Source: Gemmiger formicilis (GTDB lineage: Bacteria; Bacillota; Clostridia; Oscillospirales; Ruminococcaceae). Taken from it: a stretch of DNA of 64,000 nt. The stretch's first letter is position 1. Every line of letters begins with the position of its first letter. The notes under the pieces were generated by a model. That model saw nothing but the letters and a program-made list of their open reading frames with translations. It was not told the DNA's origin and did not search any database. The stretch spans positions 62,001 through 126,000 of the forward strand of contig NZ_JACJJP010000005.1 of assembly GCF_016900095.1 (NCBI RefSeq), in the 5' to 3' direction. Positions 29,520 through 50,873 of the stretch are shown piece by piece. Position numbers and translations under genes: made by a program.

Positions 29520-29546
29520 ACAAGCACCTCCCTTACACATTGAATC

Positions 29547-30627
29547 TTATGACGCCAGTGACGGACGTGACGCTGGTGACGGCAGTGACGGGACACCCCC
29601 GGTATAGCTGTGTCTGTCACACCCGTCACTGCCGTCACTCGTGTCACAGATGTCACCAACATGGGCCTCATAGCGCAGGCACAGCAGCCGTTTGCTGTTG
29701 GTGCGCTTGGTCTCTAACAGGATTCCGCATCGGTCCAGCGCCTCATCGTGGCTTTGCAGATATTTGGAAAGAATCGCCGGACTCCAATAGCTGCCCTGTT
29801 TTTCCAGTTGTGCTGCCAGTTCAGTGACGGTTCCCCGGAACTCCCCCGCCGCCAGCAGTTTTTTCAGGGCATTCACAACCAAAGCCAGTTGCAGCTGCTC
29901 CTGTGGCACGGCCCGGCTCCACCGGCAATCGGAGAACTCCAGTTCTTCCTCCACATCCTCAATGTCCCGCCCAGTGGCATAAAGGATGGCGGTGCCATCC
30001 TGGCGTTTGTTGCGCATCAGGATCAGAGTGCCGTCCGCCGCACCGGCCAACCCATTGGTGCCGGACAGCCGGTTGAACGGGTCGTCGTCCGCCATCTTGC
30101 GCAGGTGGTGGATGACCAGCAGGCAGATGCCGTTGCGGTCAGCCAGCGCCTTGAGCGCCCCGGCGTCCTCGTAGTCGCTGCTGTAGGAAAGCCCGCTGCC
30201 GTTCACGCACCGCACCTTTTGCAGCATATCCAGCACCACCAGCCGGATGTGCGGATGTTCCGCAAGCTGCGCTTCGATCTGCCGTTCCAGACCCTGGCCG
30301 ATGGGTGCCGTCCGGTGGCAGAGGTGCAGCCCCTCCGGTGCGGTGTCTGCCAGCCGCAAAGCCCGGCTGTGCAGCCGCTGTGAGCCATCCTCCAGCGCCA
30401 GGTAGAGCACCTCGGCCTGCGTGGTTTTCCGCCCCAGAAAAGCCGTTCCGCTGCACACAGCGAGGCACAGCTGCAACGCCATCCAGCTCTTGCCCACTTT
30501 GGGTGCCCCCCAGTATGTACAGGCCCGGCGCCAGCAGCCCGTCCACCAGATATTCCACCGGTTCCAGCGGCTGGGCGTACAGTTGCTGCATCGTGTAAGT
30601 TTTCAGTTCTTTGGTTTCATTCGTCAT
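29547..30627 (-). pseudogene. RepA-like AAA (RecA-fold) ATPase, frameshifted in Walker A
   Basis: About 360 codons from ATG 30627. A RecA-fold ATPase of the RepA/RSF1010-like helicase type: Walker A region LYILGGxPKVGKSW, Walker B-like IRLVVLDMLQKV, and LVIHHLRK sensor segment. The frame breaks at a G6 run (30506-30511) exactly before the Walker A lysine; adding one G restores LGGAPKVGKS, as in the related fragment at 11812. The 3' end contains 9-bp repeats. Likely the replication or maintenance ATPase of the element. Confidence 0.75.
29558..29656. repeat. Inverted array of 9-bp GTGAC / GTCAC repeats at the 3' end of repA-like gene 1
   Basis: GTGAC occurs at 29558, 29567, 29576 and 29585, then GTCAC at 29616, 29625, 29634, 29643 and 29652, all with a period of exactly 9 bp. 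The inner units form a perfect 17-bp stem (29576-29592 with 29622-29638) around a 29-base loop. The array overlaps the ATPase C-terminus. The same layout recurs at 49806-49899. It is a candidate iteron or initiator-binding structure. Confidence 0.8.
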
Positions 30628-30713
30628 CGCATTTTCCTTTCTGCCTTGCAGCCTTACTTGTTATGCTTTTTTCCCAGCCAGGTAACAAGGGGTTTGGGCC
30701 CGTCCAAAAGTTT

Positions 30714-30733
30714 GCGTTTGGACGTCCAAACGC
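30714..30733. promoter_or_regulatory. Perfect 20-bp palindrome upstream of repA-like gene 1
   Basis: GCGTTTGGACGTCCAAACGC reads the same on both strands. A partial extra half-site (GTCCAAAAGTTTG) lies just before it. It sits about 90 bp upstream of the ATPase start, where an operator for the linked XRE or ParR-like protein would be expected. Confidence 0.6.
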
Positions 30734-30835
30734 TATGCTAGCAAAACGTACCGGGCTGGAAAAGTGATCTTGCGTATCCCTTTTTCACGGTATATCCAAT
30801 ATTTTCACGGTCATAGGTGAACATCTTCCCGATTT

Positions 30836-30957
30836 GTACCACCGACATTTCATCTTTGTACCACCCGGGTACTTTTCATGCGCCACCATACCATTCGCCT
30901 CCAAACCACCGTACCAACTGTGGTACTTTTAGAGGGAATTTGTACCATGTGTGGTAT
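30836..30957. repeat. GTACCA direct and inverted repeats (iteron- or centromere-like)
   Basis: GTACC(A) occurs at 30836, 30858, 30911 and 30942, with inverted TGGTAC/TGGTAT at 30920 and 30952; most are preceded by TTT. TTTTCACGGT is also present twice just upstream (near 30782 and 30802). The cluster lies between the ParR-like gene and the RepA-like gene, the place for iterons or a partition site. Confidence 0.6.
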
Positions 30958-30969
30958 ATTCATGTTTTC

Positions 30970-31278
30970 TCACTTGCCGTTTGCTAAACTTTGCAAGAAA
31001 TCAATCGTCGTTCTGGGCACTTTCTTCACTTCTGGTTCTTCCTTGGATGCCGCCACGGCACCCGCCCCAACAGACGGTGCCAAATGTGCCTGCGCCAGTT
31101 CCTCCCGGATAATGGCCCTCAGCTGTTCTTCGAGCTGCTTTTTCCTATCCTATTGCAAAATCGCCTCCACCAAAAATGTGGTGCGGGAACCACGGCGCTT
31201 ACTTTGCAAAATATGCCACGCCTCCCGCTTGTTGGGGTCATCAAGATTTAAATTCAAGTGATAATGTGCTCTTGCCAT
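30970..31278 (-). pseudogene. ParR-like small DNA-binding protein with an in-frame amber stop
   Basis: From ATG 31278 (after AAAGGAGGCAAT) the frame encodes ARAHYHLNLNLDDPNKREAW, then SRRGSRTTFLVEAILQ-like sequence, meets TAG at 31150-31152, and continues in the same frame with KKQLEEQLRAIIREEL and a tail ending DFLQSLANGK before TGA. The start resembles plasmid partition proteins of Firmicutes elements (ribbon-helix-helix type), 103 codons in all. One nonsense codon separates the DNA-binding and oligomerisation parts. It could be a real pseudogene, or the two parts may still be made separately. Confidence 0.6.
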
Positions 31279-31454
31279 ATTGCCTCCTTTGCGCGTTTGT
31301 TGCGCCGACTTGATGGCGGAAATTGAATTTTGCATACTGATTATGCGGATATTTCGCGTTTTTTGTTTTATATATTCTTTGCGCTATATCCGCGCGTGTC
31401 AAGTATACTCACAAATTATTAAGCAATATATTCGCATATTCAAGGAGGTAATCC

Positions 31455-32376
31455 ATGACATTCGGTGAAAAACTCCGCCGCGCCCGCAGAGAAAAAGGCC
31501 TGACGCAAGCCGAACTTGCTCTTCAGGCCGGTTTAGGGTTACGGACGATCATCGCCTACGAGAAAGGTGAGACCTACCCGCAGAAGCGTTCCACTTACCA
31601 GACATTGGCAGACATTCTGGGCGTACAGGCGGATAACCTGCACAATGAGGAAACGGCAAGTTCTGCTGCGTCCCTTTCCCGTGCCCAGTGGGAAAATGCC
31701 AAACAGCAATATGAAAAGCTGCTGCCGGACGGCCCCGCCTGGCCGGGCGCTTCCACTTATGAGGCTTACTGCGAAAAGATGGCACAAATCTTCCGTTTAA
31801 TTGCTGCAAACAACGATCGCAATTCAACCGGTTTGGAGTTGCCGCAAACCACGATCCGCCCTGCTCTGCCCCAAGACTTCCCGACATTGCTGCAAATCTG
31901 CAAGGACCGTTACCAGTTCGATGCTACACGAGCAGGTATTGACAAAATCCGGCTTCCCACTTTTGAATCTCAACTCGAAGCCCTGACTCAGGCACTCGTC
32001 GGTTGGATCAGCGACGGGCAGTGCTTCCTGATGGAATCCAATGGTCGCCCCGGCGCCTGGTTCGTCTTGCAGCTGCCCGCACCGGACGACTACCCCGCCG
32101 CCAGCAAACGAAAAGGCGGCGCAAGGGCAACGGCCTCCACGCCGCTGCCCTGCGCCACCATGTTTGGACCCTATACTGACCCCCCATTTCGCAGGTGCTT
32201 CCAAGCACATGCTGGCTTTCTGCAAAGCCTGCTGACCGCGGCTGGCGGCCGAAGTCCCGCTGGGCGATCCACTCAGCCGGTTCCGCCTGGCCTACTGGCT
32301 GGACCAGGGCTTTGTGCCGGAGGCACGGGTGGCGTCTGGCAAGGAGATACAGCTTGTCGCGCATGGTAATTTTTAG
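31455..32376 (+). pseudogene. XRE / GNAT-like gene, broken paralogue of the one at 12172
   Basis: Starts behind AAGGAGGTAATCC and matches the intact paralogue through CATMFGPYT. A C6 run (near 32183) then shifts the frame; removing one C restores the expected HFAGASKHMLAFC. A TGA follows in the restored frame (paralogue TGC-CCG, here TGA-CCG), after which homology continues to FVPEARVASGKE and the natural stop at 32374. Two independent lesions point to genuine decay. The HTH half (residues 1-60) is intact and may still be made. Confidence 0.75.
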
Positions 32377-32454
32377 TTATAGGGCAAACTTTCACTCCAG
32401 ATCTGCGGAGGATAGACAGTCAATTCTGGCTGCTTTACCGATACAGCCGAAGTT

Positions 32455-33289
32455 CTATATCGCAAAGGGCCATAAAAAATGGTGAAAAGGCAGGAAAACA
32501 AAGCTGAAGTTTGGGGTGGAAATCCGTTTGCGCGGCCCCTGTGGGGGTGGATTCTTGGTTTTCCACTTCCATGTGGCCAGCTTTTTCAAGTTCATGGCAG
32601 CAAATTTAAGTTTCACCCAGTTCGTCACTTGGACCCAGTCTCTGTGTTGCGTATAGCGCATGCCGTGCTTTTCCTTTGCATCGGCAAACACACGCTCTAT
32701 TTTCTGTTGCCGCGGCTTGTAGATGTCCCGGTACTGCGGTGTGTGCCGGATGTTTTCCGTCATTTCCACAAAGTCCTGCCAGATGTAGCGGGTAACAGTT
32801 TTCTCACACTTGGGGCTTTGCGTACACATGGCTTTTGTCGGACAGTCCTTGCACAGATACGGCTGGCTCTTGTACTCACGGTAGCTGTTCCGGTTTGTTG
32901 TGGCATAGTGCAAGGACCGGTGTTCCGGGCAAATCACATCGTCATAGAATTCATCGTAAACGTAGGTGTACCAGGGCTGATTTCTGTCTTTGGCTTTCGG
33001 GTGCGTGTAGGCCGAGGTCAGAATACGCCCACTCTCAAAAACTCTTTTGCAGATCCACGGTGTTTTGTAGGCGCTGTCGCCAACAACAATCTTGTGCTCG
33101 GGATAGTGCTTGCAATGGAATCCCGTAGATATGCTGGACCAGCACGATTTTGAGCGGCACAAAGGGGTCAATGCTCGGCCAGCCATTGTCTTTGCTATAC
33201 AGGCTTTCAACAAATTCAAGGATTTTGTTGAAGTCGATTGTCGCGTCGATCTGCCGCAGCAAATGGTTGGCAGACACCATTTCTTCCAA
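32455..33289 (-). mobile_element. IS1182-family transposase relic with an internal deletion
   Basis: The N-terminal part (TTG start, EEMVSANHLLRQIDATIDFN...SKDNGWPSIDPFVPLKIVLV) and the C-terminal part (VVGDSAYKTPWICKR, VYDEFYDDVICPEH, IERVFADAKEKHGMRYTQ, MNLKKLATWKWK) are both typical of IS1182 transposases. They meet near 33125 out of frame, with the central part containing the first catalytic region missing. No clear terminal inverted repeats were found. It marks the right edge of the RepA/XRE module. Confidence 0.85.
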
Positions 33290-33430
33290 ACTTACAAATT
33301 CGATCTAATTCCGATTCTCAACATTTTACGTAAACACGTCTATCACTCATACTTTTATACCATATTCCCCGTACATCGAGAAATATCACGAGAAAAGGCC
33401 ACCCGGGCGCTTTTCTGGGGTGGCCGCCGT

Positions 33431-33616
33431 TCACAGCGACAGATACCGCCAGGTGTTGTAGAAGCTGATCAGGATGATGACGCCCATCAGCACCAGGAAC
33501 AGCTTGTCAACGGCGCGGCTGTCGATATGCTTGTTGATGGCCCGCCCGCCGATGCCGCAGATGATCCCGGAGATCGAGGCAAAAAAGCTGACACACTGGT
33601 ATAAGATCGATTCCAT
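33431..33616 (-). pseudogene. Remnant of a TSUP (TauE/SafE-like) membrane transporter
   Basis: About 61 codons. FFASISGIICGIGG is the first half-repeat signature of TSUP proteins, and it runs directly into RAINKHIDSRAVDKLFLVLM, then VIILISFYNTWRY, the typical C-terminal end of the family. The roughly 180 residues between are gone, apparently by an in-frame deletion at the shared GGG/GGR step. Confidence 0.6.
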
Positions 33617-33927
33617 GTACCACATCCTCTCCCGCGATTGCCAGCGCGTCGATATTCCCACCGCGGGCCCTCCCCGGCGGGGAAAGCCTGCTCCTGCCGC
33701 GCCGAAAGGGTCAGGGATCCCCCCGCCCTCCGGCTGCGTCGCCGGAAAAACGCCGGCCTTTTATTGGAATACCAGATTCTCCCGGAAAATGCGACGCATC
33801 CACGAGTAAAAAACTGCTTGCCCGGCGCCGCAGTAGGTAGGGCCCAAGGCCGGGGCGCGCCCTGGTGGCATCCGGCCGCTCCTGCTATAATAGGGCTCCC
33901 TACCCATACGCAAAGGAGAAAACCGCC

Positions 33928-34290
33928 ATGCACGTCGACCTGTTGATCAAATCGGCCTCCAGCCTGTGCAATATGCGCTACCGCTACTGCTTTTATGAGG
34001 ATGAAGCCGCCAACCGCGCCGAAGCCAGTCTGGGCCGCATGAGCCAAGAGACGGCGGCCCTGCTCATCCGCCAGGCGCTGGATGCCGAGTGGGCGGTCCT
34101 TCTGGCGGAAAAGCGCTTCCTGACGGGCATCTTGCTGGATGGTGACAAGGACCTGCGCGACAGCCTCTGGGTGGACGCCGCGGGCAAGGGCACCTGGAAC
34201 CGTGTGCAAAAAACCTGCGCCTGCAGCAAAAGGCCGGGGCCGACTACAACCTGCTGTGCGTGGTCACCCGCAGCTGCGTCCTCTTGTTAT
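33928..34290 (+). pseudogene. Remnant of an anaerobic sulfatase-maturating enzyme (radical SAM)
   Basis: The start MHVDLLIKSASSLCNMRYRY is the anSME N-terminus, but the CxxxCxxC motif reads C14-NMR-Y18-RY-C21, so the second cluster cysteine is Tyr. After QALDA, about 35 residues are missing before LLAEKRFLTGILLDGDKDLR. The frame then shifts after NRVQK (the continuation LQQKAGADYNLLCVVTR is in another frame). It cannot be functional, and it lies about 3 kb from a Cys-type sulfatase that needs such an enzyme. RBS CAAAGGAG is intact. Confidence 0.75.
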
Positions 34291-34300
34291 GATAAAGGAG

Positions 34301-34410
34301 ATGAACCGATTGAAGAAATTCGGATCCCTGATCCTGGCGGCGTCCATGTGCCTGAGTTTGGCTGCCTGCGGCGGTGCGGGCAGTAGCTCGGCGGCGGCCA
34401 ATTGCAGGAC
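34301..34410 (+). pseudogene. 5' remnant of a solute-binding lipoprotein gene
   Basis: It encodes a typical lipoprotein signal (LKKFGSLILAASMCLSLAAC, then GGAGSSSAA) after AAAGGAG, then runs within about 35 codons into unrelated sequence. It is probably the beginning of an ABC transporter binding protein whose body has been lost. Confidence 0.6.
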
Positions 34411-34439
34411 AGCGGTCTTGCACTGGCCAACAAACAATA

Positions 34440-34691
34440 CTATCGTGTATCCGAAAACTCCGCAGCACTTTTGACGGTTTGGATCGTCCCAAAACCAGCG
34501 TGTCGAACCCGATCCCGGAAAAACGCGGCAGCACCATGGGCGCACGCCCGGTGGCCAGGCAGATCAATTTTTCCCTTCCCCGCCTGCTGCAGGCGGGGAA
34601 GGGGTTCCAGTATTTGGGGGGCACTCTGCCCGGCGTAGAAATCGACCAGCGCCCCGTCGATATCAAAATAAGCGATTTTGATACGGTTCAT
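34440..34691 (-). pseudogene. 5' remnant of a HAD-family (Cof-type) phosphatase
   Basis: MNRIKIAYFDIDGALVDF is HAD motif I with DxDGT changed to DxDGA. It is followed by PQILEPLPRLQQAG, and after a frameshift (other frame) LICLATGRAPMVLPRFSGIG, the motif II region. The C-terminal cap and motifs III and IV are missing. Its 3' end overlaps the lipoprotein remnant. The 34692-34875 gap after it contains no other recognisable feature. Confidence 0.65.
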
Positions 34692-34875
34692 ATTGCCCCC
34701 TGTTTGATAGAATCCGAATTGCCGCCCGATCGTAACCGTTCCCTCTGGTGGAATGCAGGTCATGGCGTGGCTGTAACGGCTGGCGCTGCAGTTGTTCGGC
34801 TAGCCGCCGACTGCCCACGTGTTCAGGTGTTTGTTGTCGTACAGCATGCCGTCCGCATGGTTTCAAAAAGCAAAT

Positions 34876-36927
34876 TTATATTGCGCTGCTCTCTACTTCC
34901 AGCGATTTCCCGCGCATTATCAGCTTATAGTGGACGCCCGCACAGGTAAAGGTATACTCTATCTGCTCCTTACTGGCGACGTTGCTGCCAATGTCTGTCA
35001 CAGCAACAGGGCGTTCCTCCTCATGTAGCGGTACACATACGGTCAGGAATGCGTGATCTCCCGCCTCCAGATGTTCTCCCTCAAAGCGCGCAATCATCGT
35101 GTCGTGCCAGGCGTAGTCTATCACGGAGATTTTGGCCGGGACCAGATACGGCTTCAGACGGGTATCTCCATAGACGGCAATGTTGGCCCCTTTTGCGGAC
35201 AGTGACTCGGCAAAGGATGACCGGGAATCTGCCACGGCACGGGGGCTGTCCATATGAAAGTTGATCTGTACACTGGTGCCCTCGGCCACATCGCCCAGGT
35301 AGTCCAGCACGAGCAGTAGCCGGCCGTCCAGAATCGCCACAGCTCGTTTGTGGATCGTTGGTTTATAGTTCATGTGGTAGGCGATGGCATACAGCAGACG
35401 GTCTGTCTGCTTTGCCTGCAAAATATCGCCTTCCTCCTGGCTGCCGTACGCCCAGGAAGAAAAATACTCCCACGGGTTTTCATGATTCAGCGTCAGGCAA
35501 TTGTGCCAGTGGGCCGACTTTGCCTTTTGGCGGTTTTCGTCATTTTTATAGGTGTAGATGGATGGGTCGCCAAGCAGGTTGCGGCCATAGGCCGTGAACT
35601 CAAAACCGGCCGGGTCGATGTGCTCATGCAGATTTTTGACGGGAGTACGACAGGCAAACATGACGCTCAAAGCGTCATTGTCCCATCCGGTGCGGAAAAA
35701 CGTCTGTTTCAATTCATGCTGCCACGATACCAGCGCCAGATCCGGTTGACGCCGCTGCCTTCCGGCATCGGCAATACAACGGTGCAGGCTCTCCAAATCC
35801 TCCACCTCCCAGATATGCGCGGCCGCTGCGTTCAGCAGATCCTGCGGGGTATAGTAGCACAGGGCGATGTTCATATAATTTGCATCACCAAACGCCAGGT
35901 AGTGGCAAAACGCCCCCGCCGTGAGTGTGCTGCTGATGGTGTGGCTGTCGCCCCAGCAGGAATTGCCGCCACAGGGGCGGGTGGCATAGGTAGCATAGCG
36001 CGCCATCTTTTTCAGGCGTTCGCCGTATCCTTCCGACAGGGTGAAGCCGTACTTTCTGGCCAACAGCATCGGCAGTACAAACCAGTATGCTGCGCCGTTA
36101 TGGTATGAGGCGCAGCCTTCGATTTGGCCGCCGTCCGTGGTGACCTGCGCGCGGATGCTGCGCTCCATCTCGCGGATGGCGTGGGCCTTCCAGACTTCTG
36201 CTTCCCGGATTTCCGGAAACATACAGGCGAAGTACAACAGGCCATTGTTTTCCATCAGATAATGATTATGGTCCGCGTTGGGCCAAAGAATCGGTGTAAC
36301 TTTATACAAAATCTCGCAGTGCCGGTAGCCGCTCAACAGATAGGTTTTCAGGAACTTTTCATCAATATAGCCGCTGTCCAGCAGATGGTGGATGACGTTG
36401 GGCCAGGTGCGGTACATACGGATGCCCACTTCCAGCGAGCGCCAGATCCCCTGATTGCACTTGCAGCCGTCGAAGCTGTCCACGGCCAACTCGCCGTTTT
36501 CATCATACAAGGGTTGACTGGGGCATTCCTCGATCCAGGTGTAAAATTCCTCCACCAGTTTTTTTGCGTAGCGCTCGTCTTTGGTGAAAGAGTAGGCTTC
36601 TGCCATGGTGCGCCAGTGATCCATGCGATTCAGCTGGTAAGTGTACTCGTCATAATCATAGGGGTTCTCCCGCCATCGGACGGGGTCGCCAATAAAGTGC
36701 GGTTCCGGCGAACCGGGCAGTTTGGCGTAGCCGGAAAGATTCATTTCGGCCTTCTCCATCTCGGCGTCATAGATCGCAGGGAACAGTTCCCGGATCTTCT
36801 GGCCGCGCTCATACCATGTCATTCCGCCCCTGAACTTCTTTTCCCGCTCTTTCAGGTTTTTCATCACATCCGAAAGGGTAATGCCGTCTTTCAGGATGGT
36901 TTGAAGCGTCGGACTTCCCTTCATCAT
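34876..36927 (-). CDS. Heparinase II/III-family polysaccharide lyase (1)
   Basis: 683 residues. An N-terminal alpha/alpha toroid (YQLNRMDHWRTMAEAYSFTK, WRSLEVGIRMYRTWPNVI, NADHNHYLMENNGLLYFA) is followed by the beta-sandwich domain from about residue 400 with HNCLTLNHENPWEYFSSW. Such enzymes cleave uronic-acid-containing glycosaminoglycans or related polymers by beta-elimination. No signal peptide is seen, so it probably acts on imported oligosaccharides in the cytosol. Start at ATG 36927 after AAAGGGGAAAA. Last gene of the glycosaminoglycan-type operon. Exact substrate unknown. Confidence 0.82.
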   Translation of the reverse strand: MMKGSPTLQTILKDGITLSDVMKNLKEREKKFRGGMTWYERGQKIRELFPAIYDAEMEKAEMNLSGYAKLPGSPEPHFIGDPVRWRENPYDYDEYTYQLNRMDHWRTMAEAYSFTKDERYAKKLVEEFYTWIEECPSQPLYDENGELAVDSFDGCKCNQGIWRSLEVGIRMYRTWPNVIHHLLDSGYIDEKFLKTYLLSGYRHCEILYKVTPILWPNADHNHYLMENNGLLYFACMFPEIREAEVWKAHAIREMERSIRAQVTTDGGQIEGCASYHNGAAYWFVLPMLLARKYGFTLSEGYGERLKKMARYATYATRPCGGNSCWGDSHTISSTLTAGAFCHYLAFGDANYMNIALCYYTPQDLLNAAAAHIWEVEDLESLHRCIADAGRQRRQPDLALVSWQHELKQTFFRTGWDNDALSVMFACRTPVKNLHEHIDPAGFEFTAYGRNLLGDPSIYTYKNDENRQKAKSAHWHNCLTLNHENPWEYFSSWAYGSQEEGDILQAKQTDRLLYAIAYHMNYKPTIHKRAVAILDGRLLLVLDYLGDVAEGTSVQINFHMDSPRAVADSRSSFAESLSAKGANIAVYGDTRLKPYLVPAKISVIDYAWHDTMIARFEGEHLEAGDHAFLTVCVPLHEEERPVAVTDIGSNVASKEQIEYTFTCAGVHYKLIMRGKSLEVESSAI

Positions 36928-37065
36928 AGTTTTCCCCTTTTCTGAAATACAGTCTGGCGGCATCTGCCGCGACCGGGTGCAGGCGGATTTCGGCGCGCAA
37001 AACCAGTCCGCCACAGCCCATTATCCGTTTTTATATACAATACCGTGCAGAAGGCTGTGACGGTA

Positions 37066-39746: not shown

Positions 39747-39765
39747 TTGCGGCCTCCATTCGTTA

Positions 39766-41965: not shown

Positions 41966-43636
41966 TCAGGAGTTGGCAGCCTCACACCAGCGGTCATAGG
42001 CCGTCTGATATACACCGAGCACCTCTTCAAGGCCCATACGCTCAACGGTTTCAACGTAGGTGTCCCATTCGGTTTCAATGTCCGCAGCGCCGGAAATAAA
42101 TTTGGCCCGCATTTCCGTCACATACAGGTCGATGTCCGCGTACTTGTTATCAATGATGTACTGCTCGTCATCCGTAAATTTAAGAAAACCACCCGTGGGG
42201 TCGCTGGGGAAGATATGCTCTGTGATCTGGTAGGGAATGACATTCTTAGCGTAGGCTTTTTGACGTGCCTGCGAATTGCCGGGAGTGGAAGTGGTCGCCG
42301 TGCCGAATGCATCCGCACGCCCGAGGTCCTTGAAGCGGAGTGCCTGTGCCTGATACGCAGAGAAGGAGCTGAACTCTTCGGGGACGATTTCTTCATACGT
42401 ATTATCGTCATTCATCTTCCAGTCAACGCCCTCGAAGCCCCAGATGAACGTCTGGCCATAAAGGCCGGAACCGGGCACGACTTCTTCGGTGGCAAAGGCG
42501 ATGTCAAACATTTTGCAAAGCTCTTCTACATACTGGCTGTCTTTATTGATGAACATACCCGGCTGGTTCCGGTAGTCAATGACGCCGGCCAGGGTCTGCG
42601 TCTGATCGTATTCGCTGGTCAACGGCGCGAGGCAGTCAAGGTTCTCCCAATCGCCATTGAGATCCTCCAGCGACAGGCGCTGGGCAGCCGCAGCCGTCAT
42701 GAAGGCAACATTCCCGGACTTTGCCTGCTGATCGAGAACGGAATCGTCCATGGTCAGCCATTCGCGGTTCATGAGGTCTTCCTCATACAGCTTGTGCAGG
42801 AATTCATAGTAGTGCCTGGTCTGCTCCGTAACGGGCGCATATACGACCTGGCCTGTGCCGTCATCATCAAAGGCGAGATTGTTCAGCGTACCAAACGCAC
42901 TGAAAAGCATGGGTACCATGCCCGTCGTATTGGTGGTGTCGAGGATCATACCCGGAACACCGTTTTTCTCCCGCAGGATCTTCAGATCTTCATACAGTTC
43001 ATCGACGGTCGTCGGAGGATTCTCGATCCCGGCAGCCTCCAGTACGTCACGGCGATAGTGCGGGCGGCAGCTGGTGCTGGTGGCGCTTATGCCGCTCACC
43101 GCGAACAACTGATACATTTCCCCGTTCAGTTCAATGGAGGATGCACGCGCTTCCGGGAAATCCTTCAGCGTTTGCGCCAGATTGGGCATGATGTCCAGAT
43201 GATCGAGATAGTTGACGAAACGACCGCCCTGGATCCCATAGTCATTGATCTGGCTGGAGGTCAGCAGCCCTGTGTGGAAGAAATCAGGCCAGTCGTTGCT
43301 TGCCAGGTAGGTGGCCAGAGATTCTTCGTCGATGTTGATCCATTCAATATTGATCCCAGTGATTTCGGAGACCTTGTCCCACACCAGACGACTTTCGCTG
43401 ACGCTGTCGTCCGCACCAACGACCAGCCCGGTGACGGTGATCGGTTCCTCTACGATGGGATAGGTGGCAACATAGCTGCCGGTTTCAGCACTCTGGATCT
43501 TTTCCTGGGCTGCAGCGATGCCGTCTTCACTGACGGCGGCGCTCCCGCTGCCAGAGGAGGCAGTGGTCCCGCAGGCACATAAGGTGGCTGTCATGGCGGC
43601 GGTCATGCCCAATGCTGTGAGTTTTTTGAGATTCAT
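41966..43636 (-). CDS. Extracellular oligosaccharide-binding lipoprotein of an ABC importer
   Basis: 556 residues. Signal peptide MNLKKLTALGMTAAMTATLC with lipobox LCAC, then a Gly/Ser-rich linker (GTTASSGSGSAAVSE) and a large type-1 binding-protein fold of the LipO/YtcQ class that works with LplB/YtcP permeases. It lies directly downstream of both permease genes and ahead of the cytosolic enzymes, so it is the likely receptor for glycosaminoglycan oligosaccharides. Ligand identity is inferred. Confidence 0.88.
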   Translation of the reverse strand: MNLKKLTALGMTAAMTATLCACGTTASSGSGSAAVSEDGIAAAQEKIQSAETGSYVATYPIVEEPITVTGLVVGADDSVSESRLVWDKVSEITGINIEWINIDEESLATYLASNDWPDFFHTGLLTSSQINDYGIQGGRFVNYLDHLDIMPNLAQTLKDFPEARASSIELNGEMYQLFAVSGISATSTSCRPHYRRDVLEAAGIENPPTTVDELYEDLKILREKNGVPGMILDTTNTTGMVPMLFSAFGTLNNLAFDDDGTGQVVYAPVTEQTRHYYEFLHKLYEEDLMNREWLTMDDSVLDQQAKSGNVAFMTAAAAQRLSLEDLNGDWENLDCLAPLTSEYDQTQTLAGVIDYRNQPGMFINKDSQYVEELCKMFDIAFATEEVVPGSGLYGQTFIWGFEGVDWKMNDDNTYEEIVPEEFSSFSAYQAQALRFKDLGRADAFGTATTSTPGNSQARQKAYAKNVIPYQITEHIFPSDPTGGFLKFTDDEQYIIDNKYADIDLYVTEMRAKFISGAADIETEWDTYVETVERMGLEEVLGVYQTAYDRWCEAANS

Positions 43637-43739
43637 AAAGCACTCCTTCTTTTTTGATGGCGTTTATTTTACGGTCCTGCTCCACGATCGATCTATAAAG
43701 CAGTCCCGGTTACTACAGGGAAATGGATGCATGCTGAAC

Positions 43740-44624
43740 TCAGCCTTTTACCGAACCGATCATAATTCCTTTGTCGAAATATTTCTGCAGGAAGGGATAG
43801 ACAACCAGCAGCGGAACCGAAGAAACGACCATCGCCGCATATCGCAGCAGCGCCTCCCGGTCCGCCATAGCAGCGGCATAGTCCCCTGCTTCGTCCATCA
43901 GCGCAGCCGTTTGGGCCAACGTCATGATGCGGCGCAGAATGACCTGCAAGGACATTTTTGCAGTGTCCTGAATATAGATCAGGCAGTCCATGTAGGAGTT
44001 CCACTGCCCAACGGCAACGTAAAGCACGATCACGCCGATGAGCGCCTTGGACAGCGGCAAAATGATCCGTACAAACGCTTTCATGGGGGAACAGCCGTCG
44101 ATCTCCGCAGCTTCTACCAGTTCATGGGGCATGGAAGAGAAAAACGAACGGCAAATGATGACGTTGTACATGCTGAAGCATCCCAAAATAACGATGGCCG
44201 CACGAGTATTGTACAGGCCATAGGCTTTGACCTGCAGAAAAGTCGGGATCAGTCCGCCTGAGAAATACATCGTGATCATGAAGATCACCGTGATGACTTT
44301 TCGTCCGGGTAGATTGGTTCTCGTCAGTGCATAACCGGCCGGCAGCATGACGACCAGGCTCAAAAGCGTTTTGCAAACGGTATAGAAAATGGTGTTCGCA
44401 TACCCGGTCATGATGCTGTTGTCAGTAAAAACCGCTTTGTAGCCTTCCAGCGTAAAGCCTTTTGGAAAGAGGAGCACCTGCCCGGTGGCCACCATTTCTG
44501 GATCGCTGACAGAGTTGGACAGCACAAGGATCAACGGGTAGCCGACGACCGCAATAAGGATGATCGCAATGATCGTTACAATAACATCGAAAGCTGTTAT
44601 GTGTTTCAATTTTTTTGTCTTCAT
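43740..44624 (-). CDS. Carbohydrate ABC permease, YtcP/LplC type
   Basis: 294 residues with six predicted helices. The EAA loop VEAAEIDGCSPMKAFVRIIL is the contact site for the ATPase. It ends with the family-typical MIGSVKG. It pairs with the LplB-type permease 20 bp upstream. No ATPase gene is present; as in many Firmicutes, a shared MsmK-like ATPase probably serves it. Confidence 0.9.
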   Translation of the reverse strand: MKTKKLKHITAFDVIVTIIAIILIAVVGYPLILVLSNSVSDPEMVATGQVLLFPKGFTLEGYKAVFTDNSIMTGYANTIFYTVCKTLLSLVVMLPAGYALTRTNLPGRKVITVIFMITMYFSGGLIPTFLQVKAYGLYNTRAAIVILGCFSMYNVIICRSFFSSMPHELVEAAEIDGCSPMKAFVRIILPLSKALIGVIVLYVAVGQWNSYMDCLIYIQDTAKMSLQVILRRIMTLAQTAALMDEAGDYAAAMADREALLRYAAMVVSSVPLLVVYPFLQKYFDKGIMIGSVKG

Positions 44625-44644
44625 GGTAACATCCTTCCTGCTGC

Positions 44645-45607
44645 TCAGAATAGGCTGGTATCGCTGACAAGCTTCGATATCTTGTTCGCAATCAGTACCA
44701 ATGTAACGTTGATAACATTGTTGAACAAATCGACGGCGGCAGCGAAACTGTAATTGCTGTTGACCAGACCGCGTTTGTATACATAGGTAGAGATGACCTC
44801 AGCGGTCTCGAGATTGAAATCGTTCTGCATCAGGAATACTTTTTCGTAGCCGACAGAAGCGATCTGCCCAACACGCAGGATCAGCATAATGATGATGGTC
44901 GGCATCAAAGCCGGCAGATTGATGTAGATGATTTTCTGCAGCCTTGTGGCGCCGTCCATATCGGCGGCCTCATAAAGAGCCGGGTCAATGCCCGACAGCG
45001 CCGCCAGATAGATAATGGCGCCCCATCCCATGCCTTGCCAAACGCCCGACCATACATACAAATGCGGGAAATAGTCCGGATTGGCCATGAAATAATTGCG
45101 TTCCAGACCAAACATTTCCAGGATCGTGTTGACAACGCCCTGGGAAGGGGAAAGCATGCAGTTGAGCATACTGACCAGAACGACCAGAGAAATGAAGTGT
45201 GGCGCATAAAGGATGGTTTGTGTGAACTTTTTGAACTTGCCGCCCAGTTCGTTCAGCACAAGGGCCAGGATGATCGGAATGGGGAACCCTACCAGCAAAC
45301 TGTAGAGCGAAAGCACCAGCGTGTTTTTGATCAGCGTTCCAAAGTAATAACTGTTGAAAAAGTCCGTGAAGTTCTGAAACCCGATCCACGGGCTGCCCGT
45401 GACGCCCAGCGACATTTTGTAATTCTTAAACGCGATCTGCAGGCCATACATGGGTGCGTAGCAGAACAGGGCTACATAGATCAGGGCCGGCAGCAGCATC
45501 AGGTAGTAGTCCCGGTTGCGGCGGACGCGCAGCATCAATTTCCCTCTGGAATTGACGACCACGTCGTTATCGCCCGGTTTGGCTTTCTTTTTGAACGGAT
45601 TTTTCAT
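44645..45607 (-). CDS. Carbohydrate ABC permease, LplB/YteP type
   Basis: 320 residues. A basic N-terminal extension (MKNPFKKKAKPGDN) precedes six helices (YLMLLPALIYVALFCYAPMY first). The EAA loop is YEAADMDGATRLQKIIYINL. It is the first structural gene of the operon, with TGAGGAGG before its ATG. The gene upstream is the membrane AraC regulator on the same strand, separated by 520 bp and terminators, so this operon has its own promoter. Confidence 0.9.
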   Translation of the reverse strand: MKNPFKKKAKPGDNDVVVNSRGKLMLRVRRNRDYYLMLLPALIYVALFCYAPMYGLQIAFKNYKMSLGVTGSPWIGFQNFTDFFNSYYFGTLIKNTLVLSLYSLLVGFPIPIILALVLNELGGKFKKFTQTILYAPHFISLVVLVSMLNCMLSPSQGVVNTILEMFGLERNYFMANPDYFPHLYVWSGVWQGMGWGAIIYLAALSGIDPALYEAADMDGATRLQKIIYINLPALMPTIIIMLILRVGQIASVGYEKVFLMQNDFNLETAEVISTYVYKRGLVNSNYSFAAAVDLFNNVINVTLVLIANKISKLVSDTSLF

Positions 45608-45796
45608 CGAACGACCTCCTCAAAATTGTGAGATTTCCTGATTTCAATACGGTATGGCTGGCCATCGCCCTTGTCGGTCTGGATTTGGGTCAATGATACG
45701 CTGCCTACAATCCGCCGGCAAGAACAGAATTTTGCACAAGGCCAAGATCCGGCTCAAAATCTGCAAAATAATTCCATTGTCGTGAATCGGTTTTGC

Positions 45797-45952
45797 GCAA
45801 ACTGCACCAAAAAAATGCAAAAAACTGCAAAAGAAGCCGCAAAAAAAAGAAGATCATGTGCAAACCGCCAAAAGTTACCCGCCGCCCCTTTTTCTGCAAA
45901 GCGCCATCACAAAAACGCCCGCAAGGGGCACATCGGCACCCCCTGCGGGCGT
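45797..45952. promoter_or_regulatory. Phased A-tracts and a terminator between the regulator and the lyase operon
   Basis: A-tracts at 45809-45815, 45819-45824, 45829-45832 and 45841-45848, each next to TGC. The first three are spaced by about one helical turn, which should bend the DNA. Downstream, AACGCCCGCAAGGGG pairs with CCCCTGCGGGCGTT (45914-45952), with T-rich sequence on the minus strand, ending the regulator transcript. A smaller hairpin (CCCCAAAGCGGGG) lies near 46110. No gene was found in 45608-46129. Confidence 0.55.
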
Positions 45953-46129
45953 TAAACGGCTTGTTTTTGTGTGTAAAATTCCGGGCAGTGCATTCCTGCG
46001 GGGCCAGTACCTTCCGCATGCGAAGGCATGAACCCTCTCTGTGAAATATGTGTTTCCCCTACGCAGCTTGAAGTATCTGTGCGGGATCACGGCGTTTTTT
46101 TTGCGGTCCCCGCTTTGGGGAAAACTCGT

Positions 46130-47941
46130 CTATTTCTTCCGAAAGGCGGAAGGCACCACTCCGGTATGCAGCTTGAAAGTTCGTGAGAAATAATTTTCGT
46201 TTGTAAAGCCTGACTGCAAGGCGATGTCGCGCACAGAGCTTTCGGTGGTCAGCAGCAGCATTTTGGCATAATCCAACCGCTTGGCCGAAAGATACTCTGT
46301 GAACCCGACCCCCATTTCACTTTTGAACAACCGGCTGAGCGTATAATTGGAGATCTGGAATTTGTCTGCAACCTGCGCCTGGTTGATATCAGGGGTTCGG
46401 AAGTTTTCCTCAAGGAAGGTCAGGATCTGCCGCATCATTTCTTTCTGCTTCAGCCGCTTCGGTTTTTCTGCGCCGCTTGCCGCATGCGTTTTATGATTTG
46501 CTTTCTTGCGCTGCACGATGCAATCATTAAAACTCTGCTGAATGTTCTCCAGCATATCGCACACTGGTCCGGCGTACAGCTGACCGGCCGTGGTGCAGTT
46601 GGTTTGTAACCACGTTTTGGCCTCTCGTATCAGATCGCTGGAATCCTGCTGAAACATGAAGGCAATGAGTACATTGCAGTTTTCCTCATACCAGTCGGTG
46701 ACGAACACACGCGCACAGCAGTTTTGCATCAGAACGTCCGTAAGCCGTTTGGTCATCTCGCTGTTCACAAACGAGTAACCGTCCATGAGCATCACGCAAT
46801 AATACGGATAATCTGCTGTAACGCCCAGCTGCTGGATCTGCCGGGAGGAGATATGGACCCCATACAGCAGATGATTCATAAGCAGATCCGTGATGAGCAG
46901 CTGCTGCTCGTCGATTTTAGCCGCATTGGCACTCATCTCGTTTAAGAACATGCCAAATTCATCGCCGCTGCTGTAATCAAACTTATCCGTCAGTTCCTTC
47001 ACCGGTTTATACGATATATAGATAGCCGCGCCGCAAACCGCCAGCATGAGTATTACCGCCACGATCAGCACGAGCCACACGCTGTTAAACAGTTCCATGA
47101 TCGTATTCTGCATGGCCTCGCTGCCGATATAGGCGCTGATGTGCAGGGAAGGGTACTTGCTGTTGATATCATAGCGCACCTGCTGCACGTATCCTCCGGC
47201 GTGTTTCCGCGCACTTTGCGCCAAAACGGTTTCGGGGGCTTCATCGGGCGTATCCCCCCATGTAAGCAGAATTTTCCCGTCTGAACCGCACAAGTAGTAG
47301 CCGACCCCCTCATCGCCTACCATCACCATGGATTTTTCCACATCCTGCGGGGAAAGAACGTAAAATACAAGGGCCGGATCGTCGGTGGAGCCGATACGCG
47401 TGCATACCCCCACGAAAAGACGGTCGCCAGGCATCGCCGCTGTGCGGGTCGTGGCAAAGATCGTATCGCGGAGCTGATAGTTCTCCTGTGCAAAGAAGGC
47501 CGCCAGTTCTGCGTCATCTTCTTCAACATATTTGTACAAAAAATCCTGCAATGTGCAGGAATATGAACCGGTCAGGATCCGCTGATCGCGATAGCTGTAC
47601 AGCCCCCAATCGCTGACGTCCGAGCGCAGATAACTCTGATTCAGCGCCTGGGTCAGCTCCCAAATGCGGTAAGGGGTCATCTGCCCGAATCCATTGCGGA
47701 ACAGACTCCCCTGCCTCTCGCTTTCCACGCTGATGCGGGACGCATACTGTTCCAGTTCCTGCATTTTGCGGTCGAACATAGAAGTATATGTTGTAAACGC
47801 GCGCGTATACGATTCTTCGGTGAGCTGTTCCCGGTTACGCAGCACGCTCGAACGGAAGAACAGGAACGCGATCAGCACGGGGATCAGCAGGCCAAACAAA
47901 ATCACGAACGTCAGCCGGCGTAAATATTTCCGCCCCCTCAC
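46130..47941 (-). CDS. Membrane-bound AraC-family regulator of the lyase operon
   Basis: 603 residues. Transmembrane helix 1 is at residues 9-31 (LTFVILFGLLIPVLIAFLFF), an extracytoplasmic sensor of about 240 residues follows, and helix 2 is near residue 290 (VWLVLIVAVILMLAVCGAA). A cytosolic linker leads to a two-HTH AraC domain in the last 100 residues (ADKFQISNYTLSRLFKSEMG, IALQSGFTNENYFSRTFKLH). This one-component design senses a sugar outside and activates transcription directly; the adjacent import and lyase operon is the obvious target. Confidence 0.88.
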   Translation of the reverse strand: MRGRKYLRRLTFVILFGLLIPVLIAFLFFRSSVLRNREQLTEESYTRAFTTYTSMFDRKMQELEQYASRISVESERQGSLFRNGFGQMTPYRIWELTQALNQSYLRSDVSDWGLYSYRDQRILTGSYSCTLQDFLYKYVEEDDAELAAFFAQENYQLRDTIFATTRTAAMPGDRLFVGVCTRIGSTDDPALVFYVLSPQDVEKSMVMVGDEGVGYYLCGSDGKILLTWGDTPDEAPETVLAQSARKHAGGYVQQVRYDINSKYPSLHISAYIGSEAMQNTIMELFNSVWLVLIVAVILMLAVCGAAIYISYKPVKELTDKFDYSSGDEFGMFLNEMSANAAKIDEQQLLITDLLMNHLLYGVHISSRQIQQLGVTADYPYYCVMLMDGYSFVNSEMTKRLTDVLMQNCCARVFVTDWYEENCNVLIAFMFQQDSSDLIREAKTWLQTNCTTAGQLYAGPVCDMLENIQQSFNDCIVQRKKANHKTHAASGAEKPKRLKQKEMMRQILTFLEENFRTPDINQAQVADKFQISNYTLSRLFKSEMGVGFTEYLSAKRLDYAKMLLLTTESSVRDIALQSGFTNENYFSRTFKLHTGVVPSAFRKK

Positions 47942-48618
47942 AAAAAACGCCTCCTTTTATCGTCACCGTTGTGAGCGCCACAAGAGCAACTAATATGCTT
48001 ATCGGAAGAAACCTCAAACTTTCCTTCCACTTTGTCCATTATACAGCAAAAAAGCCCGCTGTGCATGCGGTCCGCCCGGAGAACTTTCCCGCAAAATTTT
48101 AGTTCATTTGCTGAAAAATTCACCTGTTTTTTGTAGAAAACGCTCTTGCGCACAAATTCAGGGCCATTTTTCGCAAAGCGGCCGCCGATCCGGTCACGGC
48201 TCACTCATCTTTTGTGCAGGGCCCACGGCGTCGGAAAGAAAACCTTTACTTTTTGGCATCTTTTGCTGTGAAAAATCAAGCCAAAATCTGATTATCCCTT
48301 GAAAACACTGTATCCACGGGTATTTCAGACAGGTCAAAACCACCTCATTTACTACGATTTTACTACTGTTGAGTGAGCCTTGACACGCTGAAAGACCACG
48401 AAATGCCGAGATATGGGTACCGCACTGTCAATCGGGGCCCCCGCCCCGTGACCATATAACTGAATACAGACCGGCCATCTGCTGGGGCAACGCCATAGGT
48501 AACACAAACCTGTGGCGTTTTTTATGCCCCGACGAGGGCACTCAAAACTGTATGAATACGGGTGGGAAATCCCCTGTTTTTTCGCCTGTGGGAGGCGCAA
48601 ACGAAGCCGCCCATATGC
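47942..48618. other. 677-bp non-coding gap before the mobilisation remnants
   Basis: It contains the promoter side of the membrane AraC gene and a hairpin AACGCCATAGGT / ACCTGTGGCGTT followed by T6 (near 48489-48521), plus a GGGGCCCCCGCCCCG stretch near 48435. No convincing coding sequence. The border between the carbohydrate operon and the mobilisation module probably lies here. Confidence 0.4.
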
Positions 48619-48948
48619 CTATTGACCGTCGCTTTTCGATTTTTGCGTGTAAAGCTCCTTCAGATCGTCAATGGCCATTTCCACATCAAAGGTGTGAAAA
48701 CCCAGCCGACAGTCGTTCATGGTCTCCGCTTCGGCAGTCTGGAAAATGGCCTTGCTGCTCTCGCCGGTGTAATAGTGCCAATAGCGGTAGGTGTAGCCAG
48801 CCCAGTACATCACCTCGGCGGAATAGAGCGCGCCTGCTTTTTTCAGTCCGCCCACTTCGTCGTTCAGTTCCTCCAGGATATACTCCTCACCAGCCCACTG
48901 CAGGCGATCATAGGTGTCGTCCAGCGCCGCGGCTGTCCGGCTGTTCAT
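48619..48948 (-). pseudogene. Truncated conserved hypothetical protein of mobile elements
   Basis: 109 codons. The sequence DDTYDRLQWAGEEYILEELN, then EVMYWAGYTYRYWHYYTGES and FDVEMAIDDLKELYTQK is rich in aromatic residues. It resembles a family I associate with Firmicutes integrative elements but cannot name. Its homologues normally start further upstream; here the N-terminus is replaced by the truncated relaxase frame, overlapping by 4 bp, so it looks like a deletion junction. Confidence 0.45.
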
Positions 48949-49307
48949 AAAGGCCTGAATAAATGCAGGGCAATCAAATGGTTGTGAATATGCCCCTTGT
49001 CAATATGGGTGGTAAGTACAAACTCGTACTTGCCACCCAATATTTCTTTTGCCAGCTCCATGCCGATCCTATGGGCTTCCTCCGGCGTGACCTCCCCAGG
49101 TTCAAACGCCTGGATGAGGTGGCGGCCCAGGTTCGTGCCCTTGTCGATGGAATGGCGGCGGGTCCATGCAAATTCGATGTCGGCGGTCTCCGCGGTGCAG
49201 CCGAAGGAGGACACCAGCAGCTTCCCGTCCGTCTTGCTGGGATTACAGATATAGTCGATGGCCGCTTTCAGCGTTGACTTAATAGGATGCGTCTTTGTAA
49301 CTGCCAT
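48945..49307 (-). pseudogene. MobA/VirD2-type relaxase, N-terminal fragment
   Basis: 120 codons of a relaxase that is normally about 450-550 residues. The nucleophile tyrosine is expected in AAIDYICNP, and the metal-binding HUH motif is complete: THIDKGHIHNHLI. After that the frame ends abruptly (ALHLFRPL), so the C-terminal half is lost. It overlaps mobC by 40 bp in the usual mobC-mobA order. The catalytic part might fold, but transfer functions that need the rest are gone. Confidence 0.8.
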
Positions 49308-49597
49308 ATCTGCTCTAATCTCTCCCGGATCTCCTCCATGTCGGCCTGATAAGTAGGGCCGCCGGCGTTCAGCCGCTTGGCGATCTGGTTGATGTTCCGA
49401 CCGATGCCGGAGAGGGTGCGGGTCATCTCCTTGATGTCGGTGGTGTCCACCTGAATGATGTACCCATCAATCGCCATCTTGCGGAGATAGGCGCCGATCC
49501 GCTTTGTCTGGAACTGAGACATCTTCTGTTCAATCAAGGCCCGCTCCTCCGCTGTCACCGGGCAGCGCAGGACGATGGGCCGCTTTCGGTTTGCCAT
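49268..49597 (-). CDS. mobC: MobC-family relaxosome protein
   Basis: 109 residues. Ribbon-helix-helix-like N-terminus (RPIVLRCPVTAEERALIEQK) and the MobC signature SGIGRNINQIAKRLNAGG, which helps the relaxase open oriT. It appears intact. It lies between the truncated relaxase and the oriT-like region. Confidence 0.88.
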   Translation of the reverse strand: MANRKRPIVLRCPVTAEERALIEQKMSQFQTKRIGAYLRKMAIDGYIIQVDTTDIKEMTRTLSGIGRNINQIAKRLNAGGPTYQADMEEIRERLEQIWQLQRRILLSQR

Positions 49598-49777
49598 AAT
49601 GTGTGCCTCCGTTTCTCATAAGGGTCTGGGACTATCTCGCCTGTCGGCTCGATCAGCGCTTCAAAGCGTTTCGCGCTTTGAGGTCTCCGCTGGAGACCCG
49701 CGCCCCAGCAAGCAATTTTTGTGTTTAGGGGCAGGGGGCCCCCTAAACCGAAAATCCGCAAGTGTGGCTACACTTGC
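49598..49777. other. oriT-like region
   Basis: The gap upstream of mobC holds several inverted repeats: AGCGCTTCAAAGCG..., GAGGTCTCCGCTGGAGACC, and TAGGGG...CCCCTA around GGGGGCCCCC. Next to them is the hairpin GCAAGTGT-GGCT-ACACTTGC (49758-49777). Its position beside mobC/mobA and its inverted repeats fit a transfer origin. The last hairpin overlaps the end of the RepA-like gene. Confidence 0.6.
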
Positions 49778-50873
49778 TGTGCTTGCTTCCCTCAAGCGAC
49801 CTTAATGACGATGCTGACGATGATGACGATGTTTGTGGGATACCCCATCCCGAAAGTTGGGATATATCAATATCATCGTCAGCACCGTCATCATCGTCAT
49901 GGAAGAACTCAAACAGACGTTTTTGCTCAGTGCGGGTGTACTTGTATTCGATACCACGAGGGCTGAATACGTCGCGGGCATAATGAGCCATCTTCCGGGT
50001 GAATTGGTTGGGTTTCACATCAGAAATATTTGCTGCAACAAGCAATTCCGTGGCTGTACCCTGCCATTTTCCAACCATGTCAATGTAGTCTGCAACTTTC
50101 CAAAGGTAGTCGGGAACAGCTTTTGTGACAAGTTGTTCAGCGGTTTCTTCCTCATCCAACGTCCAGATGCAGTTTTCTTCTCGGATATGCAGCATTTTCT
50201 CATCTATATCACGCCCAATTATACGAATTGTCGCGGTTTTACTCATGCGCTGACGATGCATAAGCCACGTTGTATCCGCCACGCCCATAATACCCGTTGA
50301 GCCGGAGATTTGGTCGTAGGGGTCTGACGATGATTGTTTGCGAAGATGATGCACAAGAAGAATACAGATGCCGTACCTATCCGCAAGTTCTTTTAATGCG
50401 CCAATATCCCGGTAATCGTTGGCATACATACTACCGCTCTGGTCGGTTTTTCGTACCTTTTGCAAGGTGTCGATGACGATGAGGCTAATATCGGAGTAAG
50501 TATGGATGAAACTGACGATTTGTTCTTCCAATCCCTGCCCAATTCCGTGGCTTTCTGTCTGCAAAATGAGACGTTCCGGGTCTTCTTCTGCATCGACAAG
50601 CTGGTAAAGACGCTCTTGCAGGCGACCTAATGTATCTTCCAACGAAAAATAAAGCACGGTTCTCGGTTCTATTTCACGGCCCCACACAGATTTCCCCTGC
50701 GAAATCTGCAAACAGAGCCACAGGGTCAGCCAACTCTTGCCCGCTTTGCTGGGGCCTGCAAAGATTGCCAGCCCTGCCGGGAGCAAACCGGGGATAATCC
50801 ATTTTACTGGCGGTATCGGCGTTGCAAGCAGTGCACCGGCGGTAATGGTTTTCGGTAATCTTGTTGTAGTCAT
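49743..50873 (-). CDS. RepA-like AAA (RecA-fold) ATPase, intact
   Basis: 376 residues. Walker A GPSKAGKSW near residue 40, Walker B ISLIVIDTLQKV, then LLVHHLRKQ and ISGSTGIMGVADTTWLMHR, in the order of RSF1010 RepA-type hexameric helicases. The C-terminus becomes Asp-rich (DDDDGADDDIDIS) where the DNA carries 9-bp repeats. It is clearly different in sequence from the RepA-like gene at 30.6 kb but has the same plan. Probably the replication helicase of the mobilisable element. Start ATG 50873. Confidence 0.82.
   Translation of the reverse strand: MTTTRLPKTITAGALLATPIPPVKWIIPGLLPAGLAIFAGPSKAGKSWLTLWLCLQISQGKSVWGREIEPRTVLYFSLEDTLGRLQERLYQLVDAEEDPERLILQTESHGIGQGLEEQIVSFIHTYSDISLIVIDTLQKVRKTDQSGSMYANDYRDIGALKELADRYGICILLVHHLRKQSSSDPYDQISGSTGIMGVADTTWLMHRQRMSKTATIRIIGRDIDEKMLHIREENCIWTLDEEETAEQLVTKAVPDYLWKVADYIDMVGKWQGTATELLVAANISDVKPNQFTRKMAHYARDVFSPRGIEYKYTRTEQKRLFEFFHDDDDGADDDIDISQLSGWGIPQTSSSSSASSLRSLEGSKHSKCSHTCGFSV
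49806..49899. repeat. Inverted array of 9-bp TGACG / CGTCA repeats at the 3' end of repA-like gene 2
   Basis: TGACGATG at 49806, 49815 and 49824, then CGTCA at 49877, 49886 and 49895, each with a 9-bp period. The two sets are mutually inverted around a 45-base centre that itself has GGGATACCCCATCCC-like symmetry. It mirrors the array at 29558-29656 in the other RepA-like gene. Confidence 0.8.

Follow-up and report, generated by a model that had tools for sequence, protein, structure and literature searches.

What function is served by two inverted arrays of 9-bp repeats that lie at the 3′ ends of two different RepA-like genes in one stretch of Gemmiger formicilis DNA? The stretch, hereafter the window, comprises 64,000 nucleotides (nt) of assembly GCF_016900095.1 (contig NZ_JACJJP010000005.1, positions 62,001–126,000), and an earlier reading of its letters (the original prediction) had proposed that the arrays are iteron-type initiator sites under selection as DNA. 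Our analysis of the window, of related genomes and of viral contigs supports that reading: each array is very probably a cis-acting replication site of its element, either an origin or a loading site of the P4 crr type, which the winged helix of the RepA-like protein would bind. The arrays and the genes that carry them are as follows.

Array 1, 29550–29655: five TGAC and five GTCA units, inverted, with a 9-bp period and a 26-bp centre (29590–29615) containing CCGGTATAG.
Array 2, 49806–49899: three TGAC and three GTCA units, inverted, with a 9-bp period and a 50-bp centre (49828–49877) containing GGGATACCCC and GGGATATATC.
RepA-like gene 1, 29547–30627, minus strand: AAA_25 RecA-fold ATPase with a winged-helix-type C-terminus, in open reading frames (ORFs) 29547–30497 and 30139–30627.
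RepA-like gene 2 (376 amino acids), 49743–50873, minus strand: RecA-fold helicase core, winged helix, and a tail, predicted with low confidence, whose codons lie in array 2 and past it (PF13481, E 4e-32).

The units are spaced exactly 9 bp apart throughout both arrays. In array 1, TGAC starts at 29550, 29559, 29568, 29577 and 29586 and GTCA at 29616, 29625, 29634, 29643 and 29652; in array 2, TGAC starts at 49806, 49815 and 49824 and GTCA at 49878, 49887 and 49896. The inverted arms are complementary at 80% over 35 nt in array 1 and 79% over 43 nt in array 2. These positions and this complementarity confirm the two 9-bp inverted arrays at RepA-like 3′ ends that had been described from the letters, and the two proteins are, as also described, clearly diverged. 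Some details changed: array 1 does have five GTCA-type units, but its TGAC-type units number five rather than four (the first is ATGAC); 29547–30627, which had been given as a single gene, consists of two ORFs that overlap in different frames; and both genes read the units in one and the same frame (TGAC as xxT GAC, GTCA as xxG TCA).

The pattern is rare and confined in position. The window has 15 TGAC/GTCA pairs at a 9-bp distance, 12 of them inside the two arrays. Across the 3.26-Mb genome a pattern of two plus two units with a centre of 20–50 occurs at only three places, in every case a RepA-like 3′ end, and the reversed control pattern does not occur in that genome. The array is also present, with a longer centre, at a fourth AAA_25 gene of this genome (locus L004). 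Among the eight AAA_25 genes examined, of 12 matches in this genome, four have the array and four do not, and the C-termini of the latter are different by eye.

To follow the array beyond this genome, we employed a DNA-only search (three plus three units, no protein information) of 297 genomes of the host's family, in which one locus per genome was assessed. The pattern matched in 26 of the 297 and its reversed control in none of them; at 22 of the 26 loci a RepA-like gene has its 3′ end, and one is at a DUF3987 gene. On viral contigs the pattern yielded 12 loci, seven of which lie beside replication genes: RepA-like, VapE/Prim-Pol (two copies of one), a second VapE about 140 nt off, DUF3987, D5-type and a PHROG primase. 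Three others of the 12 could be assigned to no gene type. A separate search by protein similarity collected 80 genome and 80 viral loci, of which 137 were usable (70 genome, 67 viral); the other 23 of the 160, with no clear gene or less than 250 nt downstream, were dropped. The loci are mutually related, and the counts therefore include non-independent cases.

These homologues were scanned with a motif-free detector that scores equal letters in three plus three or two plus two units, with the right arm reverse-complemented, within 250 nt of the stop codon. It was positive near the stop in 64 of 137 loci, compared with 5 of 1745 control windows from the same loci. When periods from 6 to 14 were scanned, period 9 was found in 31 of 70 genome loci and the other periods in 0–3 (the next, period 12, in 3); among viral loci it was found in 33 of 67 and the others in 0–6 (6 at period 10, 4 at period 8). 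In every third control window, period 9 was seen in 0 of 298 (genome) and 2 of 284 (viral). TGAC/GTCA pairs at spacing 9 reach 3.84 per kb at the 3′ end versus 0.11 per kb elsewhere, and pairs at spacings 8 and 10 reach 0.22 and 0.18 per kb. A looser test, which asked for a single TGAC/GTCA pair spaced 9 bp apart and no more than 250 nt from the stop, was positive in 67 of 70 genome loci versus 20 of 893 control windows, and in 17 of 67 viral loci versus 21 of 852. Since so few viral loci pass this one-pair test, most of them lack the TGAC core. Their cores vary (GTGTCCAA, CTACTAT, TGCAACCC, TTGTCACT and others) and the 9-bp plan is constant. By eye, four RepA-like 3′ ends (L102, L129, L133, L136) have two tandem array modules, most with a GGATACCC centre, which recalls the duplicated 120-bp crr of P4.

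Other settings gave mixed results. The detector was positive at three of five RepA-like places on small scaffolds and a plasmid (L241, L244, L245; negative at L242 and L243) and at 4 of 10 DUF3987 loci of the order (nine genes, L230 and L233 being pieces of one). By eye, L224, L226, L231 and L232 among the DUF3987 loci also have repeats about 9 bp apart, the VapE loci L234 and L238 have repeats of other spacing, and several of L224–L233 (DUF3987) and L234–L238 (VapE) have repeat arrays right around the stop codon. Single-protein scans of the viral contigs found no DUF3987 relatives, and the only VapE relatives were on the two contigs already in the set. Judging from these sequences, helicase-primase genes of mobile elements may share the array plan generally.

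Is the array kept as DNA or as coding sequence? The original prediction named coding-repeat expansion as its main alternative. In the form considered here, an acidic Asp-rich and Ser/Pro-rich tail would have grown by 9-bp (three-codon) slippage, with the DNA pattern as a by-product. Both window arrays are indeed read in one common frame, the two arms share a frame in 14 of the 15 arrays that are coding throughout, and two of the 12 viral pattern matches lie within repetitive ORFs of other genes (L021, L023). However, among 36 TGAC/GTCA arrays, 15 are inside the ORF, another 18 include the stop codon and 3 come after it. The stop TGA is itself the first unit of the array in seven loci (L020, L031–L034, L037, L047; L020 is on the same contig as L145, one of the 36), and the stop-straddling arrays show all values of centre length modulo 3. 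Codon choice points the same way, in 17 coding genes that were chosen for having arrays and in which the core codons GAC and TCA are present by definition: Ser is encoded by TCA in 64 of 127 cases in the array region versus 32 of 329 in the remainder of those genes, and Asp outside the core by GAT in 34 of 45 versus 149 of 330 in that remainder. The array-encoded tail of RepA-like 2 is predicted with low confidence, with a predicted local distance difference test score (pLDDT) below 50 at residues 347–376.

A further case is the 8.3-kb circular plasmid pATHE01, in which a scan of the whole record gives a single array cluster, inside an AAA ATPase gene. It lies 265–441 nt ahead of the gene end (negative within 300 nt of the stop, positive farther inside), right after what by eye is an apparent helix-turn-helix or winged-helix segment, and encodes IHSIHS and SEQSERSER repeats instead of D and S. 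Because the array persists untranslated and its letters change while the 9-bp spacing stays, selection appears to act on the DNA and not on the protein, as had been proposed. Coding-repeat expansion fails for the untranslated arrays and is already refuted as the whole story; we regard it as extremely improbable.

Over 70 arrays the unit consensus is RTGACRRYN. The repeats could also be retained as an RNA hairpin or DNA cruciform (a terminator or attenuator) between repA and the next gene. Single-strand folding of arrays 1 and 2 is stronger than that of 200 of 200 shuffles each (z of −5.1 and −6.0 as DNA, −5.2 and −6.2 as RNA), and stem integrity matters for the origin of plasmid pRN1, according to the portion of the report available (PMC4234260). 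A selected stem would, nevertheless, pair its spacers, and they agree at 2.63 of 5 positions in stem register versus 2.95 out of register in the same array and 2.04 between arrays. None of the 70 arrays (L021 and L023, as protein repeats, were left out of this test) forms a perfect stem, and an Rfam scan of the window gave no match at gathering scores. Because the spacers fail to pair across the arms, the hairpin is not the kept feature; selection for a hairpin or cruciform, including the regulatory cruciform of the original prediction, is not supported and seems highly unlikely. The strong folding scores look like a by-product of the inverted units.

The centres of the arrays are enriched in GGGATACC/GGTATCCC, and ATACC occurs in 27 of 72 centres (L021 and L023 included) versus 4.0 expected after shuffling. 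In individual centres, such as 49828–49877, GGGATACC/GGTATCCC (elsewhere CTATATAG) stands between the arms, and its frame differs between L006 and L008.

For RepA-like protein 2, AlphaFold2 (53-sequence alignment, mean pLDDT 87.6) predicts a confident RecA-fold core and, also with high confidence, a C-terminal winged helix that would bind DNA.

Winged-helix domain (RepA-like 2 residues 245–325), 49899–50141, minus strand: proposed iteron-binding domain (prediction).

The helicase core matches DnaB, RadA and RSF1010 RepA (1nlf, TM-score 0.68 by target length). The window proteins match AAA_25 and not the D5_N, DUF5906 or Pox_D5 families, and no primase domain was found in the window RepA-like protein. 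When the winged helix alone was submitted to a second structural comparison, plasmid initiators on origin or iteron DNA ranked first (8ac8, Z 7.0) and fourth (1rep, Z 6.7). The entry 1KA8, P4 alpha's own domain, was absent among the matches listed there, which excludes nothing. A winged-helix profile run against PDB sequences retrieved no initiator among 24 matches, the top ones being repeat and designed proteins.

We propose the following scheme as a model. The replication site of the element would be made up of 9-bp iterons (RTGACRRYN), arranged as two sets that face each other in inverted orientation across a short centre. The C-terminal winged helix of the RepA-like protein would bind the iterons in that protein's own gene, each 9-bp unit taking up one domain, and one RecA-fold helicase ring would be placed on each inverted set. 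The rings would then open the DNA, so that replication of the excised element could start. Placed where the initiator gene ends, the site would allow a helicase and its own origin to travel as one transferable unit.

Several observations weigh against this model. Three of the 26 pattern loci in the family (L036, L041, L045) lack a RepA-like gene within the stretch examined, and two of them come directly after an integrase gene. The mirror control of the motif-free detector was positive at the same place in 20 of 137 loci, and at the strict threshold the detector was negative in 39 of 70 genome and 34 of 67 viral loci; the TGAC pair test was negative in 50 of 67 viral loci, and period 9 was absent from all six VapE loci taken from the order, of which one falls below the cut-off for the family. 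The winged-helix Z values against initiators of the RepE/TrfA type, being below 8, are weak and may at that level mean a common fold only, and Foldseek with the winged helix returned no match at E ≤ 0.001. Among reference systems, P4 crr, in which the spacing is less regular, escapes the detector, and neither N15 (22000–36000) nor the 3′ end of the BPP-1 primase gene gives a hit. The distance between the putative origin of sk1 and the end of its annotated AAA ATPase gene, perhaps other than the RepA-like match, is about 1.8 kb. Finally, the centres are not AT-rich (mean AT of the 72 centres 0.51), unlike PICI (phage-inducible chromosomal island) origins.

The genes downstream of the arrays raise two further explanations.

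Tyrosine integrase directly downstream of array 1, 28325–29540, minus strand: overlapping ORFs 28707–29540 and 28325–29047.
MobC/NikA-like gene downstream of array 2, 49268–49597, minus strand: PF21983, PF05713.
Short relaxase ORF (120 amino acids) downstream of MobC, 48945–49307, minus strand: PF03432.

One is that the arrays are origins of transfer (oriT) or integrase arm-type sites serving a neighbouring relaxase or integrase. We surveyed the neighbours of 62 of 70 loci (8 with less than 1.5 kb downstream were dropped) by similarity to the window's own genes, so that the counts are lower bounds. A relaxase lies within 1.5 kb downstream in at least 25 of the 62 and an integrase in at least 4, and two orphan arrays follow an integrase gene. 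Yet by the same measure neither gene is present in 33 of 62 loci, and therefore oriT or integrase sites fail to explain the set. The same layout also stands beside RepA-like, DUF3987, VapE and D5-type genes and in pATHE01, which is typed as non-mobilizable. This explanation, too, is in our judgment very improbable. Orphan arrays were seen at L246 (2937–3026), L247 (6157–6236) and L248 (8411–8490), between two different tyrosine integrase genes and with no RepA-like gene in the stretch.

The other explanation is an operator or copy-control site, at which the RepA-like protein or another regulator represses repA or the downstream gene, the site not being an origin. Array 1 starts 9 nt ahead of the integrase ORF start, and iterons often double as control sites. 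Operators, however, usually lie at promoters; the arrays are at 3′ ends, the downstream genes are varied, and P4 crr, the PICI ori and the pRN1 origin are replication sites at the same position. A purely regulatory role is thus very unlikely, and we retain the replication-site model.

Both window elements appear decayed: RepA-like gene 1 and the integrase are each split between frames, and the relaxase by RepA-like gene 2 is short. Because its two overlapping ORFs lie in different frames, RepA-like gene 1 is probably a broken copy; its first ORF matches PF13481 (E 6.6e-20) and the second had no Pfam match. The integrase downstream of array 1 is probably broken as well. The frame splits in 28325–30627 could reflect a decayed element or sequencing errors. 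Elsewhere in the window a truncated RepA-like N-terminal fragment (11782–12066, minus strand) has no TGAC pair array nearby. With this fragment, the RepA-like genes at C55:47010, 92093 and 112331 and a VapE gene at C55:6035, several elements have accumulated on this contig.

How does the array compare with known systems? The closest layouts are those of P4 and the PICIs, with which the helicase genes share an iteron set at or immediately 3′ of the gene end and two such sets around a centre. In the P4 record X51522, crr follows alpha immediately on the 3′ side; its type-1 repeats are given at 4314 and 4323, a distance of 9 bp, and inverted ones at 4366 and 4384. P4 alpha with crr/ori resembles the proposed arrangement in that replication requires, in cis, a region immediately 3′ of the helicase gene, with short direct and inverted iterons, partly 9 bp apart, in two copies. 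It differs in the protein, since alpha is a Toprim primase and D5-type helicase with a Pox_D5 C-terminus, whereas the RepA-like proteins are of the RecA-fold AAA_25 type; P4 alpha and pRN1 ORF904 match D5_N, DUF5906 and Pox_D5. In the available text on PICIs, the origin is immediately 3′ of rep and has two iteron sets (PMC6092414), and repeats downstream of the genes for SaPI (Staphylococcus aureus pathogenicity island) Rep and SCCmec Cch2 are described as recognised by the C-terminal domain (PMC7581432). By these partial descriptions, SaPI/PICI Rep-ori and SCCmec Cch2 resemble what is proposed for the RepA-like loci in an origin directly downstream of a Rep helicase gene, C-terminal recognition and two iteron sets. 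They differ in that PICI iterons are described as flanking an AT-rich region, while the RepA-like array centres are 51% AT, and in that here the elements are integrated and mobilizable, the helicase fold is another one, and the array is often within coding sequence.

For RSF1010 RepA the likeness lies in the RecA-fold helicase core (a hexameric state of the RepA-like protein is our conjecture). RSF1010 RepA has no origin-binding domain, and a separate protein, RepC, binds its iterons; in the RepA-like proteins, by contrast, the helicase is fused to a winged helix. The lambda initiator differs in another way, as it is not the helicase. Phage lambda O and mycobacteriophage RepA resemble the layout proposed for the RepA-like genes in having the origin within or next to the initiator gene, and no 9-bp inverted plan is described for them in the text available (PMC7157519). 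No title or abstract opening listed in searches of open-access papers describes such an array in RepA-like genes.

The archaeal plasmid pRN1 offers a more distant comparison. Its mapped origin is given, in the accessible part of the report, as a 100-nt stem-loop that starts 54 bp 3′ of the gene for a prim-pol/helicase/winged-helix protein (PMC4234260). In its stem (L218, 3′ of orf904) we found two TGTCCA units 9 bp apart and their inverse. Period 9 holds at 8 of 9 positions in the corresponding arms of pHEN7, 8 of 13 in pRN2 (where period 5 is as good, 10 of 17) and 5 of 11 in pDL10; no arm comparable to that of pRN1 was found in pSSVx. The TGTCCA core is also present in the viral loci L153, L154 and L199. 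Unlike the RepA-like arrays, the pRN1 origin is described in that text as a stem-loop without iterons; its arms are near-perfect complements, the plasmid is archaeal and the helicase is D5-type.

These parallels raise a broader idea, to which we give distinctly less credence and which we consider possible but doubtful: that inverted 9-bp iterons provide a general geometry by which the ring helicases of mobile elements are loaded, across unrelated folds (RecA-fold RepA-like, D5-type P4 and pRN1, and DUF3987), whether reached separately or shared, and that the pRN1 "stem-loop" origin is a disguised two-unit iteron array. Nine bp would correspond to about 309 degrees at 10.5 bp per turn, or 300 at 10.8, so that each step would turn the binding face by about −51 to −60 degrees and successive subunits of a six-membered ring would meet successive iterons; two inverted sets would load two rings head to head. 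Constant spacing with changing letters makes such a helicase-loading geometry directly testable.

The replication-site model itself has wider consequences. A sequence rule, by which the 3′ end of a replicative helicase gene holds inverted iterons of 9 bp, would predict where origins lie in phages, plasmids and integrated elements that have no mapped replication. The arrays also show clearly how a cis-acting DNA element can pass into and out of coding sequence. The pRN1 stem suggests that an archaeal plasmid stem-loop origin is built from the same kind of units. Overall, the array is best explained as a P4/PICI-type layout that differs by an RSF1010-RepA-type RecA-fold helicase fused to a winged helix, and a layout that the PICI authors, in the text available, call unique would thereby extend to another helicase fold and to mobilizable elements.

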